Source: Natrarchaeobaculum sulfurireducens (GTDB lineage Archaea; Halobacteriota; Halobacteria; Halobacteriales; Natrialbaceae). From it: 64,000 nucleotides of DNA. Positions 2,973 through 31,379 of the stretch are shown one piece after another; the stretch's first letter is position 1; the number at the start of each line of letters is the position of its first letter. Below the pieces are notes generated by a model. The model was given only the letters and a program-made list of their open reading frames with translations. It was not told the DNA's origin and did not search any database. Where the stretch lies: positions 124,001 to 188,000 of the forward strand of contig NZ_CP024047.1 of NCBI RefSeq assembly GCF_003430825.1. The letters are read 5' to 3'. A program made the position numbers and the translations under genes.

Positions 2973-3045
2973 GTCCGGGTTGGGGTAGTGGTTATCCTTC
3001 AGCCTTGTGGAGGCTGAGACGCGGGTTCGATTCTCGCACCCGGAC
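2973..3045 (+). tRNA. tRNA-His (GTG)
   Basis: The cloverleaf is clear: an encoded G-1 at 2973 pairs with C73 at 3045 (the tRNA-His identity pair). The acceptor is 2974-2980 with 3038-3044, the anticodon stem is CAGCC/GGCTG with loop TTGTGGA (anticodon GTG), and the T-arm is GCGGGTTCGATTCTCGC. A T-run at 3047-3051 follows directly. Its 3' end is repeated three more times downstream. Confidence 0.97.
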
Positions 3046-3379
3046 CTTTTTACGACAAACGACGTGAGGAGTGAAAAAGCCGGAAGACGAGGCCGAACCA
3101 GACGAGTCGCGCGGAGCGAAGCGAACGCGTCTCGGCGAGGTTCGATTCTCGCACCCGGATGTTCTGCGGCGAACAACATCGTGAGCCGCGGAAGCCCCCA
3201 GAGAATCGAATCAGAGAGTGAAGTGACCGAAACGAACGGAACGACCGTGGTTCGGTTCTCGCACCCGGATGTTCTGCGGCGAACAACATCGTGAGCCGCG
3301 GAAGCCCCCAGAGAATCGAATCAGAGAGTGAAGTGACCGAAACGAACGGAACGACCGTGGTTCGATTCTCGCACCCGGA
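3024..3379 (+). repeat. Array of four copies of the tRNA-His 3' end, partly 110-bp tandem units
   Basis: The last 21 nt of tRNA-His (GGTTCGATTC..CACCCGGA) recur at 3139-3159, 3249-3269 (one change, A to G) and 3359-3379. Copies 2, 3 and 4 are 110 bp apart, and the intervening sequence of the two units (3161-3248 and 3271-3358) is identical. Each unit also carries GAGAATCGAA (near 3311-3320 and one period earlier), the inverse of TTCGATTCTC in the T-arm. The stretch between copies 1 and 2 is different and carries the GAACCAGACGAG module shared with the tRNA-Phe and tRNA-Val loci. Confidence 0.95.
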
Positions 3380-3678
3380 CGTTCTGCAGCGACTGGCCCC
3401 TCGAATCACGGGAGCCCATGCGACAGATGCGAGACGATCGACGCGGATCTCCCAGGCTGGACTCGGTGTACTCTCACCCTGGTGGCCGTCTTCTTCCACG
3501 GCCCTCGAGCCCGACGCGGCCCGCGACCGCGTTCTCGAGTCGGTTCACTCGAGTTCTGGTGTCACGCTCTCGGTGAACGTCTGGATGAATGCTTCCACGT
3601 AGTGGCTGTGCGCGCGTGAGTCTGTGTGGTCCGCCGTCGGCCACCGACGCTTATCCTCTTCGAGCGAAATGAGGGCGT
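3380..3678. other. Spacer without a recognisable gene
   Basis: This follows the tRNA-His repeat array up to the next start codon. Open frames are present on both strands, but their composition does not look like haloarchaeal protein and no family is recognisable. The sequence GCTTATCCTC at 3650-3659, about 25 nt before the ATG at 3679, could serve as a weak promoter element. Confidence 0.5.
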
Positions 3679-11973: not shown

Positions 11974-12056
11974 TGCCACCTCCCGAATTTGAACCTCGCC
12001 GAGACAGTTGTGCTCGCTCATCTCCTTCGTTGTACGCACTGTAACTCGTCTGGTTC
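11974..12056 (-). repeat. tRNA-Phe 3'-end copy plus shared hairpin module
   Basis: TGCCACCTCCCGAATTTGAA at 11974-11993 (plus strand) is a diverged copy (two mismatches) of the tRNA-Phe 3' end at 12128-12147, displaced about 154 bp downstream of the gene. Reading the tRNA sense strand, the stretch before it begins TTGAACCAGACGAGT (inverse of 12044-12058) and ends GTCTCGGCGAGGTTC (inverse of 11991-12005). This is the same module as at tRNA-His and close to that at tRNA-Val. GAACC/GGTTC, AGAC/GTCT and AGTT/AACT can pair. Confidence 0.8.
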
Positions 12057-12127
12057 AACTCCGCTCGAGAGCAGGTCTGTGACTCACGAACGACTCGCTT
12101 CGCTCGTCGTCTTGTTCGTCACAAAAG

Positions 12128-12201
12128 TGCCGCCTCCCGGATTTGAACCGGGGACAGCTCGATCTTCAGTCGAGTGCTCTCCCAGTCTGAGCTAAGGCGG
12201 C
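12128..12201 (-). tRNA. tRNA-Phe (GAA)
   Basis: On the minus strand, acceptor GCCGCCT pairs with AGGCGGC, followed by discriminator A. The anticodon stem-loop is CTCGA-CTGAAGA-TCGAG (anticodon GAA), and the T-arm CCCCGGTTCAAATCCGGGA is intact. It is followed on its own strand by a TTTTGTGACGAAC trailer. Confidence 0.97.
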
Positions 12202-12410
12202 TCACCTACATCTCCGTCCATGGTATAAAAAAGGATTTCGAATCGGAACGCATCGCTCAGACGTCACGACCCGTCAGTTGTGGGGCATACGAAGACTCAA
12301 CAGCCGAGTAACGGATGGATACAGTTCGCGTAGCGTTCGGTGGCCTGTGCTCTGTTGGATTTACGGATATTCAAGACACCCTTTTCCGCGCTGGCGAGTA
12401 ACATCGTGTT
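12202..12410. other. Short intergenic region
   Basis: The promoter of tRNA-Phe should lie at its left end (GGTATAAAAAAGG, 12221-12233, a good TATA box on the minus strand). A plus-strand promoter for the DUF7344 gene should lie near TTACGGATATTC (12360-12371). Nothing else was seen. Confidence 0.5.
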
Positions 12411-12857
12411 ATGGGGGCACTTACCTCGAGCCAAGGTGAGCAAGAACTCTCGGCCGACACCATCCTCGAGTTACTTGCGAACCGCCGCCGCCGATACCTG
12501 TTGTACGCACTGCGTGGCCGTGAAGAGCCGATCGAACTGTCGAAACTCGCCGAGCGCGTCGCCGGCTGGGAACACGACGTCCCGCCCGACGAGGTGGCCC
12601 AAAACGAGTACAAGAGCGTCTACGTCTCGTCGGTCCAGTGTCACGTCCCGAAATTGGCCGATGCAGGCGTCGTCGACCACGACGAGGACAACCACACTGT
12701 CATCCTCGGCGATAACTTCGGCCAACTCGAGCCCTATCTCCGCGTCGTCGTCCGCGACGAACCCGAAAACTCGACGCTACACGCGGCCCTCGAAGCTGAA
12801 TCCGGCGACGGATTTTTCAGCCAGATCAGGGAGAACGTCGCCCGACTCAAGCACTGA
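12411..12857 (+). CDS. DUF7344 winged-helix regulator
   Basis: A 148-residue protein. The core LELLANRRRRYLLYAL ... ELSKLAERVAGWEHD ... YKSVYVSSVQCHVPKLADAG-VVDHDEDNHTVILG is the DUF7344 winged-helix pattern found in many copies in haloarchaea, probably DNA-binding. The C-terminal 45 residues (YLRVVVRDEPENS...) are not part of the core. It sits between two tRNA genes, with no operon partner. Confidence 0.8.
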   Translation: MGALTSSQGEQELSADTILELLANRRRRYLLYALRGREEPIELSKLAERVAGWEHDVPPDEVAQNEYKSVYVSSVQCHVPKLADAGVVDHDEDNHTVILGDNFGQLEPYLRVVVRDEPENSTLHAALEAESGDGFFSQIRENVARLKH

Positions 12858-12992
12858 CTACTCCGTGCAGTGGCAAGCGTCGGCGTGATAGTGACCGATT
12901 GGGGCCGACGAATCGTCTCGACGATTCGGTCATCACGCCCCTCGCTCGAGTCATTGCTCGAGACGGGTCTTGGGGCTCGACTCAGTGACGGT

Positions 12993-13067
12993 GTGGGCTC
13001 GGGCGGATTCGAACCTCGTCCAGACGGTCGGCCTCACTCCGTTCGGCCGCTGCGACTGGTCTGGTTC
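12993..13067 (-). repeat. tRNA-Val 3'-end copy plus shared hairpin module
   Basis: The plus-strand sequence GTGGGCTCGG-GCGGATTCGAACC at 12993-13015 exactly repeats the 3' end of tRNA-Val at 13121-13143, 128 bp away on the downstream side of the gene. On the tRNA sense strand the stretch between them contains GAACCAGACCAGT (inverse of 13055-13067) and ends GTCTGGACGAGGTTC (inverse of 13011-13025), matching the modules at tRNA-His and tRNA-Phe. A GGCC-11 nt-GGCC hairpin lies inside. Confidence 0.9.
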
Positions 13068-13121
13068 GAACCGTCTTCGGTCCACGTACCTGCTGCTCGC
13101 GGGGTTGCTCACAGCAGGAAG

Positions 13122-13195
13122 TGGGCTCGGGCGGATTCGAACCACCGACCTCGGCCTTGTAAAGGCCGCGTCATAACCAACTAGACCACGAGCCC
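13122..13195 (-). tRNA. tRNA-Val (TAC)
   Basis: On the minus strand, acceptor GGGCTCG pairs with CGAGCCC, followed by discriminator A. The anticodon stem-loop is CGGCC-TTTACAA-GGCCG (anticodon TAC), with T-arm GGTGGTTCGAATCCGCC. The trailer on its own strand is CTTCCTGCTG, without a long T-run. Confidence 0.97.
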
Positions 13196-13255
13196 GTACG
13201 TCGACTGAGTGGCCCCGTCCGAATAACCTTTACTTTCTCACATCGCAGTCTGCGT

Positions 13256-13747
13256 ATGGTTCTCGAGCGGGTCTGGAAGGGGCTTCTCCTCCTCGTCGTG
13301 ATCTCGATCGTCGGCCTTCTCTTCGTCCAGGCAGGGTTCGTCTCAGCGCCGTGGGGCGAGGATCGGGCCGAGGTGTGGGTACTCGACGACGCGGGCGAGC
13401 GGAAGGCCGTCGTCGATGCCGAGGTCGCCGACACCTGGGGCGAGCGTTACACCGGCCTGAGCGAACACGAGTCGCTCGCCGAGGGCGAGGGGATGCTGTT
13501 CGTTCACTCGAGCGAGGCCGAACGGACGTACGTGATGCGCGAGATGGCCTTCGACATCGACATCATTTTCATCGATGCGGAGCGGGAAATCACGGCGATC
13601 GAGCACGCTCGCGCACCCGAACCCGGCGAGGACGGCGATGATCTCGAGTACACCGGACAGGCACAGTACGTCCTCGAGGTGCCACGCGGTTACGCGAACG
13701 AGACGGGGATTGCCGCTGGGGACGCCGTCGAGATCGAGTACCAGTGA
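13256..13747 (+). CDS. Membrane-anchored DUF192 protein
   Basis: A 163-residue protein with one N-terminal hydrophobic segment (residues about 8-27, LLLLVVISIVGLLFVQAGFV) that is an anchor or uncleaved signal, so the rest faces outside. The DUF192 core follows: VADTWGERYTGLSEHESLAEGEGMLFVH, then YVMREMAFDIDIIFIDAEREITAIEHA and a C-terminal YVLEVPRGYANETGIAAGDAVEI. DUF192 is widespread and its function is unsettled. 70 nt separate it from the ABC exporter gene, which has its own TATA box. Confidence 0.85.
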   Translation: MVLERVWKGLLLLVVISIVGLLFVQAGFVSAPWGEDRAEVWVLDDAGERKAVVDAEVADTWGERYTGLSEHESLAEGEGMLFVHSSEAERTYVMREMAFDIDIIFIDAEREITAIEHARAPEPGEDGDDLEYTGQAQYVLEVPRGYANETGIAAGDAVEIEYQ

Positions 13748-26643: not shown

Positions 26644-26683
26644 CAACACCCTGTCTCGCTGTCGTGAGACGTGAGACAGGGGT

Positions 26684-26755
26684 GGGCCCATAGCTCAGTG
26701 GGAGAGTGCCTCCTTTGCAAGGAGGATGCCCTGGGTTCGAATCCCAGTGGGTCCA
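26684..26755 (+). tRNA. tRNA-Ala (TGC) in the rRNA spacer
   Basis: Acceptor GGGCCCA with TGGGTCC plus discriminator A, anticodon stem-loop CTCCT-TTGCAAG-GAGG (anticodon TGC), T-arm CTGGGTTCGAATCCCAG. Position between 16S and 23S is the usual archaeal arrangement. Confidence 0.97.
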
Positions 26756-26899
26756 TACCTCGGATGGGATCGAGATCCGTGCCCTTAAGTGTGGCAAGGA
26801 ACTTTGATCTGATCCGAACGAAACCGATGCACCACTCCGCGCAAGCGTGAGTGGGAAGGGTTGATGCAGGCCCGTTAGTCAGCGGGCGTGCGGATGAGA

Positions 26900-30326: not shown

Positions 30327-30402
30327 GCCAAGGTGGCAGAGTCCGGCCGAACGCAGCGGCCTGCAGAGCCGCCTACCGCCGGTTCAAATCCGGCCCTTGG
30401 CT
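30327..30402 (+). tRNA. tRNA-Cys (GCA)
   Basis: Acceptor GCCAAGG with CCTTGGC and discriminator T (tRNA-Cys identity U73); anticodon stem-loop GCGGC-CTGCAGA-GCCGC (anticodon GCA); T-arm GCCGGTTCAAATCCGGC. A TTTTT run follows as terminator. Upstream TAGTATTATATGC (30315-30327) supplies an AT-rich element. No copy of its 3' end was found downstream, in contrast to the other four tRNA genes outside the rRNA operon. Confidence 0.97.
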
Positions 30403-31156
30403 TTTTCAGCAACACTTCGGGATGAGCGTCTGCAACTGAGTCGTGTATAGAGAGGAAACCCCTTCTGGATCGAATCTATTGTTGGCTGTCGAGCGACCCA
30501 ACCGCTTGCTACCCTGGTCACCGATTTATCACCCGCAGTTTGACCCGGCCACTCGGTCGGTGCCTGTACCGAGCCTAGAGCGGCGGCGTTCGCTCGAGCT
30601 CATCGTGTGCCTGGCGCGCGCAATGAATTCTGCAATGTAAATCGTCGTTACCTGTTGCTTCGGCGTCCGTCGAGAAGCCGGCCGATAAGTCCAAGGTGTT
30701 CACCCCCTACGGTGAATACGCGCGGTACGGTGGGGCCGGCTTCGCACTATGGCGAGGCCGTTTCTGTGAGTGAGGGACCGATGACGTGGCAACGACAGCG
30801 CGTCCCTTCCTCGCCAGTTTGCGAGGTATGAGTCCCAAATATAAATATTTTGGCCGTGGCCAAACATCGTTCCCTGGTCTGCCGTGAGGTGGGTGTAAAC
30901 GCCCCAGTCATCAAATCGCTTCCAGTGAGACCGACGAACTCGATCTCGAGAGGGGGCACGGGTCACGGCTGTGCGCTATACTCCGACGGGTTTTAGCCGC
31001 CTGATCTATGTCGGGTCCCGATACAATCTACTCTGGGTATAGTTTGTGGACCCGGTCAACTCCTTCCTTGCTCACCACGCTCGTGGGGGCACGTCTTTCC
31101 CATGTCGTAATCGCTCTGGGCGGGCTGCTCTTCACGGTATTGCTCGTCGTAAAAGT
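30403..31156. other. 750-bp region without a recognisable protein gene
   Basis: Apart from shadow-like open frames, the visible structure is a hairpin TTCACC-CCCTAC-GGTGAA (30699-30716), a hairpin CCTCGC-CAGTTT-GCGAGG (30809-30826), an AT-rich AAATATAAATATTTT (30837-30851) and next to it a palindrome TTGGCCGTGGCCAA (30850-30863). The last two resemble a promoter with an operator, but no gene starts at a suitable place. Confidence 0.45.
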
Positions 31157-31257
31157 GGGCCGGGCGCGATTTGAACACGCGGTCGGATGTGCTCGTTCAC
31201 GGCGTCGCCGTTTGCGACCGCGCTCTCGCTGCGCGAACCCTCCCTGCGTTCAAATCC
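31157..31257 (-). repeat. tRNA-Lys 3'-end copy with inverted T-arm motif
   Basis: The 25 nt at 31157-31181 (GGGCCGGGCGCG-ATTTGAACACGCG) are identical to 31307-31331 in the tRNA-Lys gene, 150 bp further along the gene's downstream side. GCGTTCAAATCC at 31246-31257 is an inverted near-copy of the T-arm GATTTGAAC. On the tRNA sense strand the inverted motif comes first and the direct copy ends the unit, as at the other loci. The distal copy, not the gene, is followed by CACTTTTACGACGAGC, a trailer resembling those right after tRNA-His and tRNA-Phe. Confidence 0.92.
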
Positions 31258-31305
31258 GTCCGGTTCCGAGACTCACCGCTCGCGGATCTGCTCGCGGCGA
31301 GAATA

Positions 31306-31379
<74 letters not shown>

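Follow-up and report, generated by a model that had tools for sequence, protein, structure and literature searches.

Gene-less hairpin cassettes behind haloarchaeal tRNA genes: candidate insertions that duplicate the tRNA tail

Large mobile DNA classically integrates at tRNA genes, and a tRNA-Val(UAC) gene of Natrarchaeobaculum sulfurireducens poses the question of what placed a second copy of its 3' end close behind it. The gene lies at 13121-13195 (minus strand) of the window, by which we mean the whole 64,000-nucleotide stretch analyzed here, and an exact copy of its last 23 nt (13121-13143) is found at 12993-13015 (minus strand), 128 bp downstream in the tRNA sense. The positions of this copy, of the GAACCAGAC...GTCTGGACGAGGTTC module, and of the GGCC hairpin all agreed with the original prediction, which had also proposed an insertion at this locus. 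The comparisons presented below support an insertion, as one case of a haloarchaea-wide family found at many tRNAs and not as a single recent event.

Results

Structure of the unit behind tRNA-Val

The 23-mer of the tRNA-Val tail had two exact matches genome-wide and two more with 3 mismatches; in 200 shuffles of the downstream region no match had fewer than 5 mismatches over 20 nt, compared to the 0 observed. Gene and copy are separated by 105 bp that contain no integrase gene. An open reading frame (12870-13184) merely reads through the unit and the tRNA, the unit itself has no coding capacity, the flanking genes encode DUF7344 and DUF192 proteins, and no integron integrase gene is adjacent. 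On the minus strand, hairpin A (13089-13118), with GA/GA mismatches flanking its loop, directly follows the tRNA. Next come a left arm, GGTTCGAACC (13063-13072, minus strand), that is the reverse complement of the T-loop, and a self-pairing type I core (13014-13064, minus strand) that overlaps the arm by 2 nt and bears the apical hairpin GGCC-GA-AC-GGA-GT-GA-GGCC (13030-13048, minus strand), the stem of which covaries among relatives. The tail copy closes the unit, the duplicated target being the stretch from the T-loop to the 3' end of the gene (13122-13141). The predicted folding energy of the unit was -59.7 kcal/mol versus -43.3 kcal/mol for shuffled sequences (z = -4.4), and the fold comprised hairpin A and a long second hairpin in which GGTTCGAACC is paired with the T-loop of the copy; as judged by eye, the stems of hairpin A are compensated in relatives. 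When 12100-13400 was scanned with Rfam 15, the tRNA alone reached the gathering score, and no family was found in L261 either. The GA...TGA loops had prompted consideration of an H/ACA or K-turn guide RNA, which was rejected on the basis of the near-continuous predicted stem and the lack of a matching family. Many hairpins, including those at 13089-13118 and 13030-13048 and others in further units, combine a stem, tandem G-A mismatches, two pairs, and a tip of the C-GNA-G type, for example GCGAAGC. Tips of this type are very stable in single-stranded DNA.

Further units are present within the window. tRNA-Phe (12127-12201; 11974-12201 with its unit, minus strand) is followed by a hairpin (12077-12124), an arm and core (11994-12061), and a tail copy with 2 mismatches (11974-11993), and tRNA-Lys(UUU) (31306-31379; 31156-31379 with its unit, minus strand) by one unit with a tail copy at 31156-31175 (1 mismatch). 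Three units follow tRNA-His (2974-3046; 2974-3380 in all, plus strand), with tail copies at 3141-3160, 3251-3270, and 3361-3380 (plus strand); units 2 and 3 (3141-3380) are almost identical and look like a recent tandem duplication. Neither tRNA-Ala(UGC) (26683-26756) nor tRNA-Cys (30327-30402) had a unit in any of three surveyed genomes; the same was true of the tRNA-Thr genes, and core II (described below) was seen behind tRNA-Thr(CGU) in two other genomes.

Own-tail copies among haloarchaeal tRNA genes

All RF00005 matches of the window's genome (G000, 45), a genome of the same genus (G003, 46), and one of another family (G040, 46) were surveyed for genes whose last 20 nt occur again, allowing up to 4 mismatches, in the region 20-320 nt downstream. 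Such own-tail copies follow 20/45, 24/46, and 13/46 tRNA genes, respectively, where the denominators include tRNA fragments matched by RF00005 and where one of the 13 positives of G040 (the first tRNA-Asp) is merely the next tRNA-Asp gene. Mismatched pairs of tail and region provided the background: 44/1964, 30/2056, and 29/2062 (1.4-2.2%). The positives at tRNA-Gly(CCC), one in G000 and two in G003, are longer tRNA fragments and were excluded from the arm and mismatch comparisons. At L209 (G003) and L054/L077 (G000), copies comprising most of tRNA-Gly(CCC) but not its 5' part lie behind the gene; these partial copies are fused to a hairpin and are scored by RF00005 as tRNA genes. Occupancy differs between related genomes, and outside the order none of 33 tRNA genes (27 loci, a small and score-selected sample) had an own-tail copy.

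The duplicated 20 nt span the T-loop to the discriminator base. In most copies the left edge falls 1-4 nt ahead of the T-loop TTC, and in most the right edge is 0-2 nt past the gene, giving a duplicated piece of about 19-24 bp that runs from the T-loop motif rightwards. Differences in the tail between genomes (GAATCC or GAACCC) are tracked by exact copies, as in both copies of L015. Exceptions are found in Natrialba taiwanensis, where the copy has T and the tRNA C, and at tRNA-Ile of G003, where the copy is a mosaic with a G-type T-loop and an Ile-type stem. An RT-stop origin was considered and rejected: the mismatches between tail and copy occur throughout positions 54-73, most often at 73, and thus carry no modification-stop signature.

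Cassette anatomy and core families

The order within a unit is hairpin A, arm (T-loop reverse complement), core, and tail copy. These non-coding cassettes measure about 80-110 bp, with unit periods of 67-153 bp, which is too short for a transposase, and they stand in arrays of one to three or more; many units begin T-rich, and a folded hairpin with a covarying tip is seen in them. Cores fall into several families that are shared among different tRNAs. Core II, TCAGGGAG-hairpin-CGACCGTGG, is present in 35 of 61 genomes and core I, AGTCGCAGC-hairpin-CCGTCT, in 27 of 61, and both patterns read backwards gave 0 matches in the 61 genomes. A same-strand tRNA was found upstream of 27 of the 32 core II matches examined; the other five have no tRNA within 700 nt upstream, three of them being followed by a tRNA-tail-like copy and two not. 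For core I the tRNA was found upstream of 28 of 31 matches examined, and one of the three exceptions is an array in genome G021 that has been displaced by about 24 kb. In the apical stem, 131/133 cells were paired across 19 distinct sequences of core I and 90/95 across 19 of core II, values reached by 0/1000 shuffles in each case, with counts made on cores of one length each (47 nt for core I, 28 nt for core II) and with shuffles that ignore relatedness. A strict correspondence between the arm and the local tRNA was rejected; the own tail beat all others in only 6/57, and target specificity is therefore claimed only for the tail copy.

Cores do not follow tRNA identity. For only 5 of 70 cores (three genomes) was the nearest relative located behind the same tRNA in another genome. 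Unit order and core also differ between related Natrialba: the same unit of hairpin A plus core II occupies the second position in N. aegyptia and the first in N. taiwanensis, and in N. asiatica a related hairpin A is joined to core III.

Filled, empty, and displaced tRNA loci

To compare the tRNA-Val locus we used the window's own locus and 29 relatives, the best 30 of 57 genomes with matches. The search for an empty site that accompanied the original prediction had a mixed outcome here, as 27 of these best 30 of 57 keep at least one tail copy (one copy in 17, two in 7, and three in 3). The three loci with no copy are two decayed ones plus that of G021, where an element of ~23.7 kb, bounded by tRNA-Val tail copies, lies between tRNA-Val and its array (L351-L352; G021:C2:1164800-1189500) and accounts for the zero by having moved the array away; a Phage_integrase-family gene is situated near its far end (L352 2714-3994, minus strand). 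The same-genus genome G002 has both tail copy and hairpin A but no core. An array survey of 92 rows combined the 30 tRNA-Val loci with 62 named loci chosen for two tails, and its rows are not independent because some named loci come from the same genomes as the tRNA-Val loci.

The insertion boundaries sought in the original prediction were mixed at tRNA-Val itself and clean at tRNA-Leu(CAA) and at the 3' end of a protein gene. At tRNA-Leu(CAA), tail and flank occur once in G000 (empty) and twice in G003 (filled), with an arm and core between. The two flanks of G003 are nearer to each other than to that of G000, and the "empty" site in G000 could instead be a deletion. At the Leu-CAA, Leu-UAA, and Arg-GCG loci, at least 35 bases of flank are duplicated besides the tail, exceeding the ~20-bp target duplication, and these filled loci can be read as tandem duplications.

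A cassette array behind a protein gene

The most telling locus is not a tRNA gene: in G003, an array with core II occupies a T-loop-like GGTTCGAGCC located at the 3' terminus of a protein gene. The host gene is small and OB-fold-like, with a PF01796 match below the Pfam cut-off, and ends in ...CGGTTCGAGCCGGTCTGA, a T-loop look-alike. Three tandem 102-bp units, each closing with a copy of GGTTCGAGCCGGTCTGAGC, give four copies of the 19-nt target at +0, +102, +204, and +306. A second target copy (0 mismatches, +102 to +110) was found at 3 of 30 orthologous sites (G003, G007, and G042), and the remaining 27 lack one (at least 5 mismatches). The same-genus genomes G000 and G002 are empty at this site and collinear with G003 after removal of the units, and in G007 an insertion is found also at a second, related gene. 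Filled and empty sites with a duplicated target establish an insertion family with target duplication. At the corresponding 3' end in L293 (G022), a hairpin-A-like sequence stands directly behind the motif with neither core nor second target copy; it is possibly a remnant.

Discussion

Target duplication with its boundaries, filled and empty sites, arrays, a non-tRNA site, conserved structure, and shuffling were observed directly. We consider the unit, with a probability of roughly 0.55, to be a non-autonomous insertion cassette that enters at the T-loop motif GGTTCRAAYC with target duplication. tRNA genes share this motif, which also arises elsewhere by chance. The cassette (hairpin A, T-loop-complementary arm, and structured core) would insert at GGTTCRAAYC after a trans-acting enzyme had cut the motif in a staggered fashion, and about 19-24 bp of target would be copied from the T-loop edge rightwards, a length that happens to reach the tRNA 3' end. 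With the duplication ending there, the tRNA would remain whole and an own-tail copy would come to lie on the far side of the cassette. Arrays may later grow or shrink via recombination between target copies. Involvement of a folded single strand is suggested by the inverted arm together with the conserved hairpin. The cassettes could not be linked to any transposase, integrase, or circular form, the core patterns had 0 matches in 2.9 million viral contigs, and the tRNA-Val unit had no copy in the plasmids or phages searched.

Staggered insertion in trans is ranked first, above an integron-like recombinase, template switching, and host-selected trailers, and plain target duplication leaves the presence of the inverted T-loop arm unexplained. 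In an integron-like recombination, the end of each cassette would form an attC-like hairpin (arm-core-T-loop) and the T-loop of the tRNA would act as platform site, with a tyrosine recombinase responsible for both insertion and excision. Inverted T-loop arms, apical hairpins that vary, shuffled order, and arrays that follow one fixed platform are in line with this reading. The ~23.7-kb element of G021 with its Phage_integrase gene uses the same tRNA-Val tail, and T-stem-loop sites serve archaeal integrases as attachment sites according to the excerpted text of PMC8371274. Conservative recombination would, however, import the donor tail, whereas the loci, including the protein gene, carry their own sequence, and with neither cassette genes nor a linked recombinase seen we regard this explanation as unlikely. 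Own tail, own flank (at least 35 bases at some loci), and inverted arm are covered together by replication template switching, whereby replication stalls behind the tRNA and the strand, folding back or switching at the short conserved T-loop sequence with no dedicated enzyme, would copy tail and flank a second time and acquire a core from a different locus. The mosaic copy at tRNA-Ile of G003 is consistent with such an event, but the conserved core ends, fixed orientation, and compensated stems are left unexplained by switching alone, and it too seems improbable.

The high occupancy of tRNA-Val (27 of the best 30 of 57) could reflect host function and is a point against a view based on insertion only. 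Structured 3' trailers or small RNAs under selection (terminator, processing, or guide RNA) would agree with the strong folding and covariation and with the T-rich start of many units. Against such a role, occupancy varies among related genomes, cores are not inherited per tRNA, the same core stands behind a protein gene, and no Rfam family except tRNA reached the gathering score, and we hold it to be quite unlikely. The units might also be attachment-site remnants of ordinary integrases, that is, shrunken prophages or integrative plasmids; an integrative element uses tRNA-Val in G021, and Haloquadratum elements leave tRNA tail copies of 22-43 nt according to the excerpted text of PMC3119063. 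This already disfavored reading has very little likelihood given that one core family stands behind many tRNAs and a protein gene and that the units are tiny and uniform in size, form tandem arrays, and have conserved structure.

Integron attC sites are folded recombination sites with a variable apical part. Set beside them by description, the cassettes similarly form arrays behind one site, and their hairpins with variable tips may resemble such sites, but they differ in being gene-less, in having no linked integrase, and in carrying own-target tails. The SMRs of Haloquadratum walsbyi are, in the portion of PMC3119063 available, short transposase-free mobile repeats with strong targeting and enigmatic mobilization; neither they nor PATEs are described there as duplicating their target, and the main targets of SMR-A are PATEs and IS605-type elements rather than tRNA genes. 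The cassettes resemble SMRs and PATEs in being haloarchaeal, short, transposase-free, and mobile and are set apart, by description only, in duplicating ~19-24 bp of target. They share with mini-elements of the MITE or SMR type several insertion sites and empty orthologous sites (protein gene, Leu-CAA); MITEs have terminal repeats related to known transposons (PMC3119063, same portion). Casposons of Methanosarcina mazei insert at tRNA 3' ends with a 14 bp target duplication, and CRISPR adaptation duplicates repeats of 25-50 bp (PMC6977970, in excerpt). Integration at tRNA 3' ends with target duplication is thus a shared feature, but here about 20 bp from the T-loop are duplicated, no Cas1 gene is in the unit, and hairpin families are present; casposons, moreover, are large and bring their own enzyme. 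In the excerpt of PMC8371274, tRNA-targeting integrative elements leave a partial tRNA copy at the far end and use archaeal tyrosine recombinases; these span kilobases and carry an integrase, in contrast to the tandem, gene-less cassettes of about 80-110 bp. Among the open-licence PMC papers returned by literature searches, titles and abstract openings gave no recognizable description of these cassettes.

In three genomes, between one quarter and one half of the tRNA genes are followed by an element of ~100 bp with conserved structure, whose copying of the tail leaves the tRNAs intact. It is conceivable, though we propose it tentatively, that haloarchaea carry a dedicated system, acting in trans, by which gene-less hairpin cassettes are written into arrays behind tRNA genes and reshuffled, an architecture like that of CRISPR or integrons but with no coding cargo, with the T-loop motif as landing site and the tRNA tail as repeat. 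If a dedicated enzyme is responsible, its activity, in recombination or transposition, would be new and would be directed at a conserved motif that is nearly universal. Given these cassettes, a short tRNA tail copy is easily misread as a prophage scar. The cassettes also supply many tRNA genes with ready-made duplicated attachment sites, which bears on why tRNA genes draw integrative elements.
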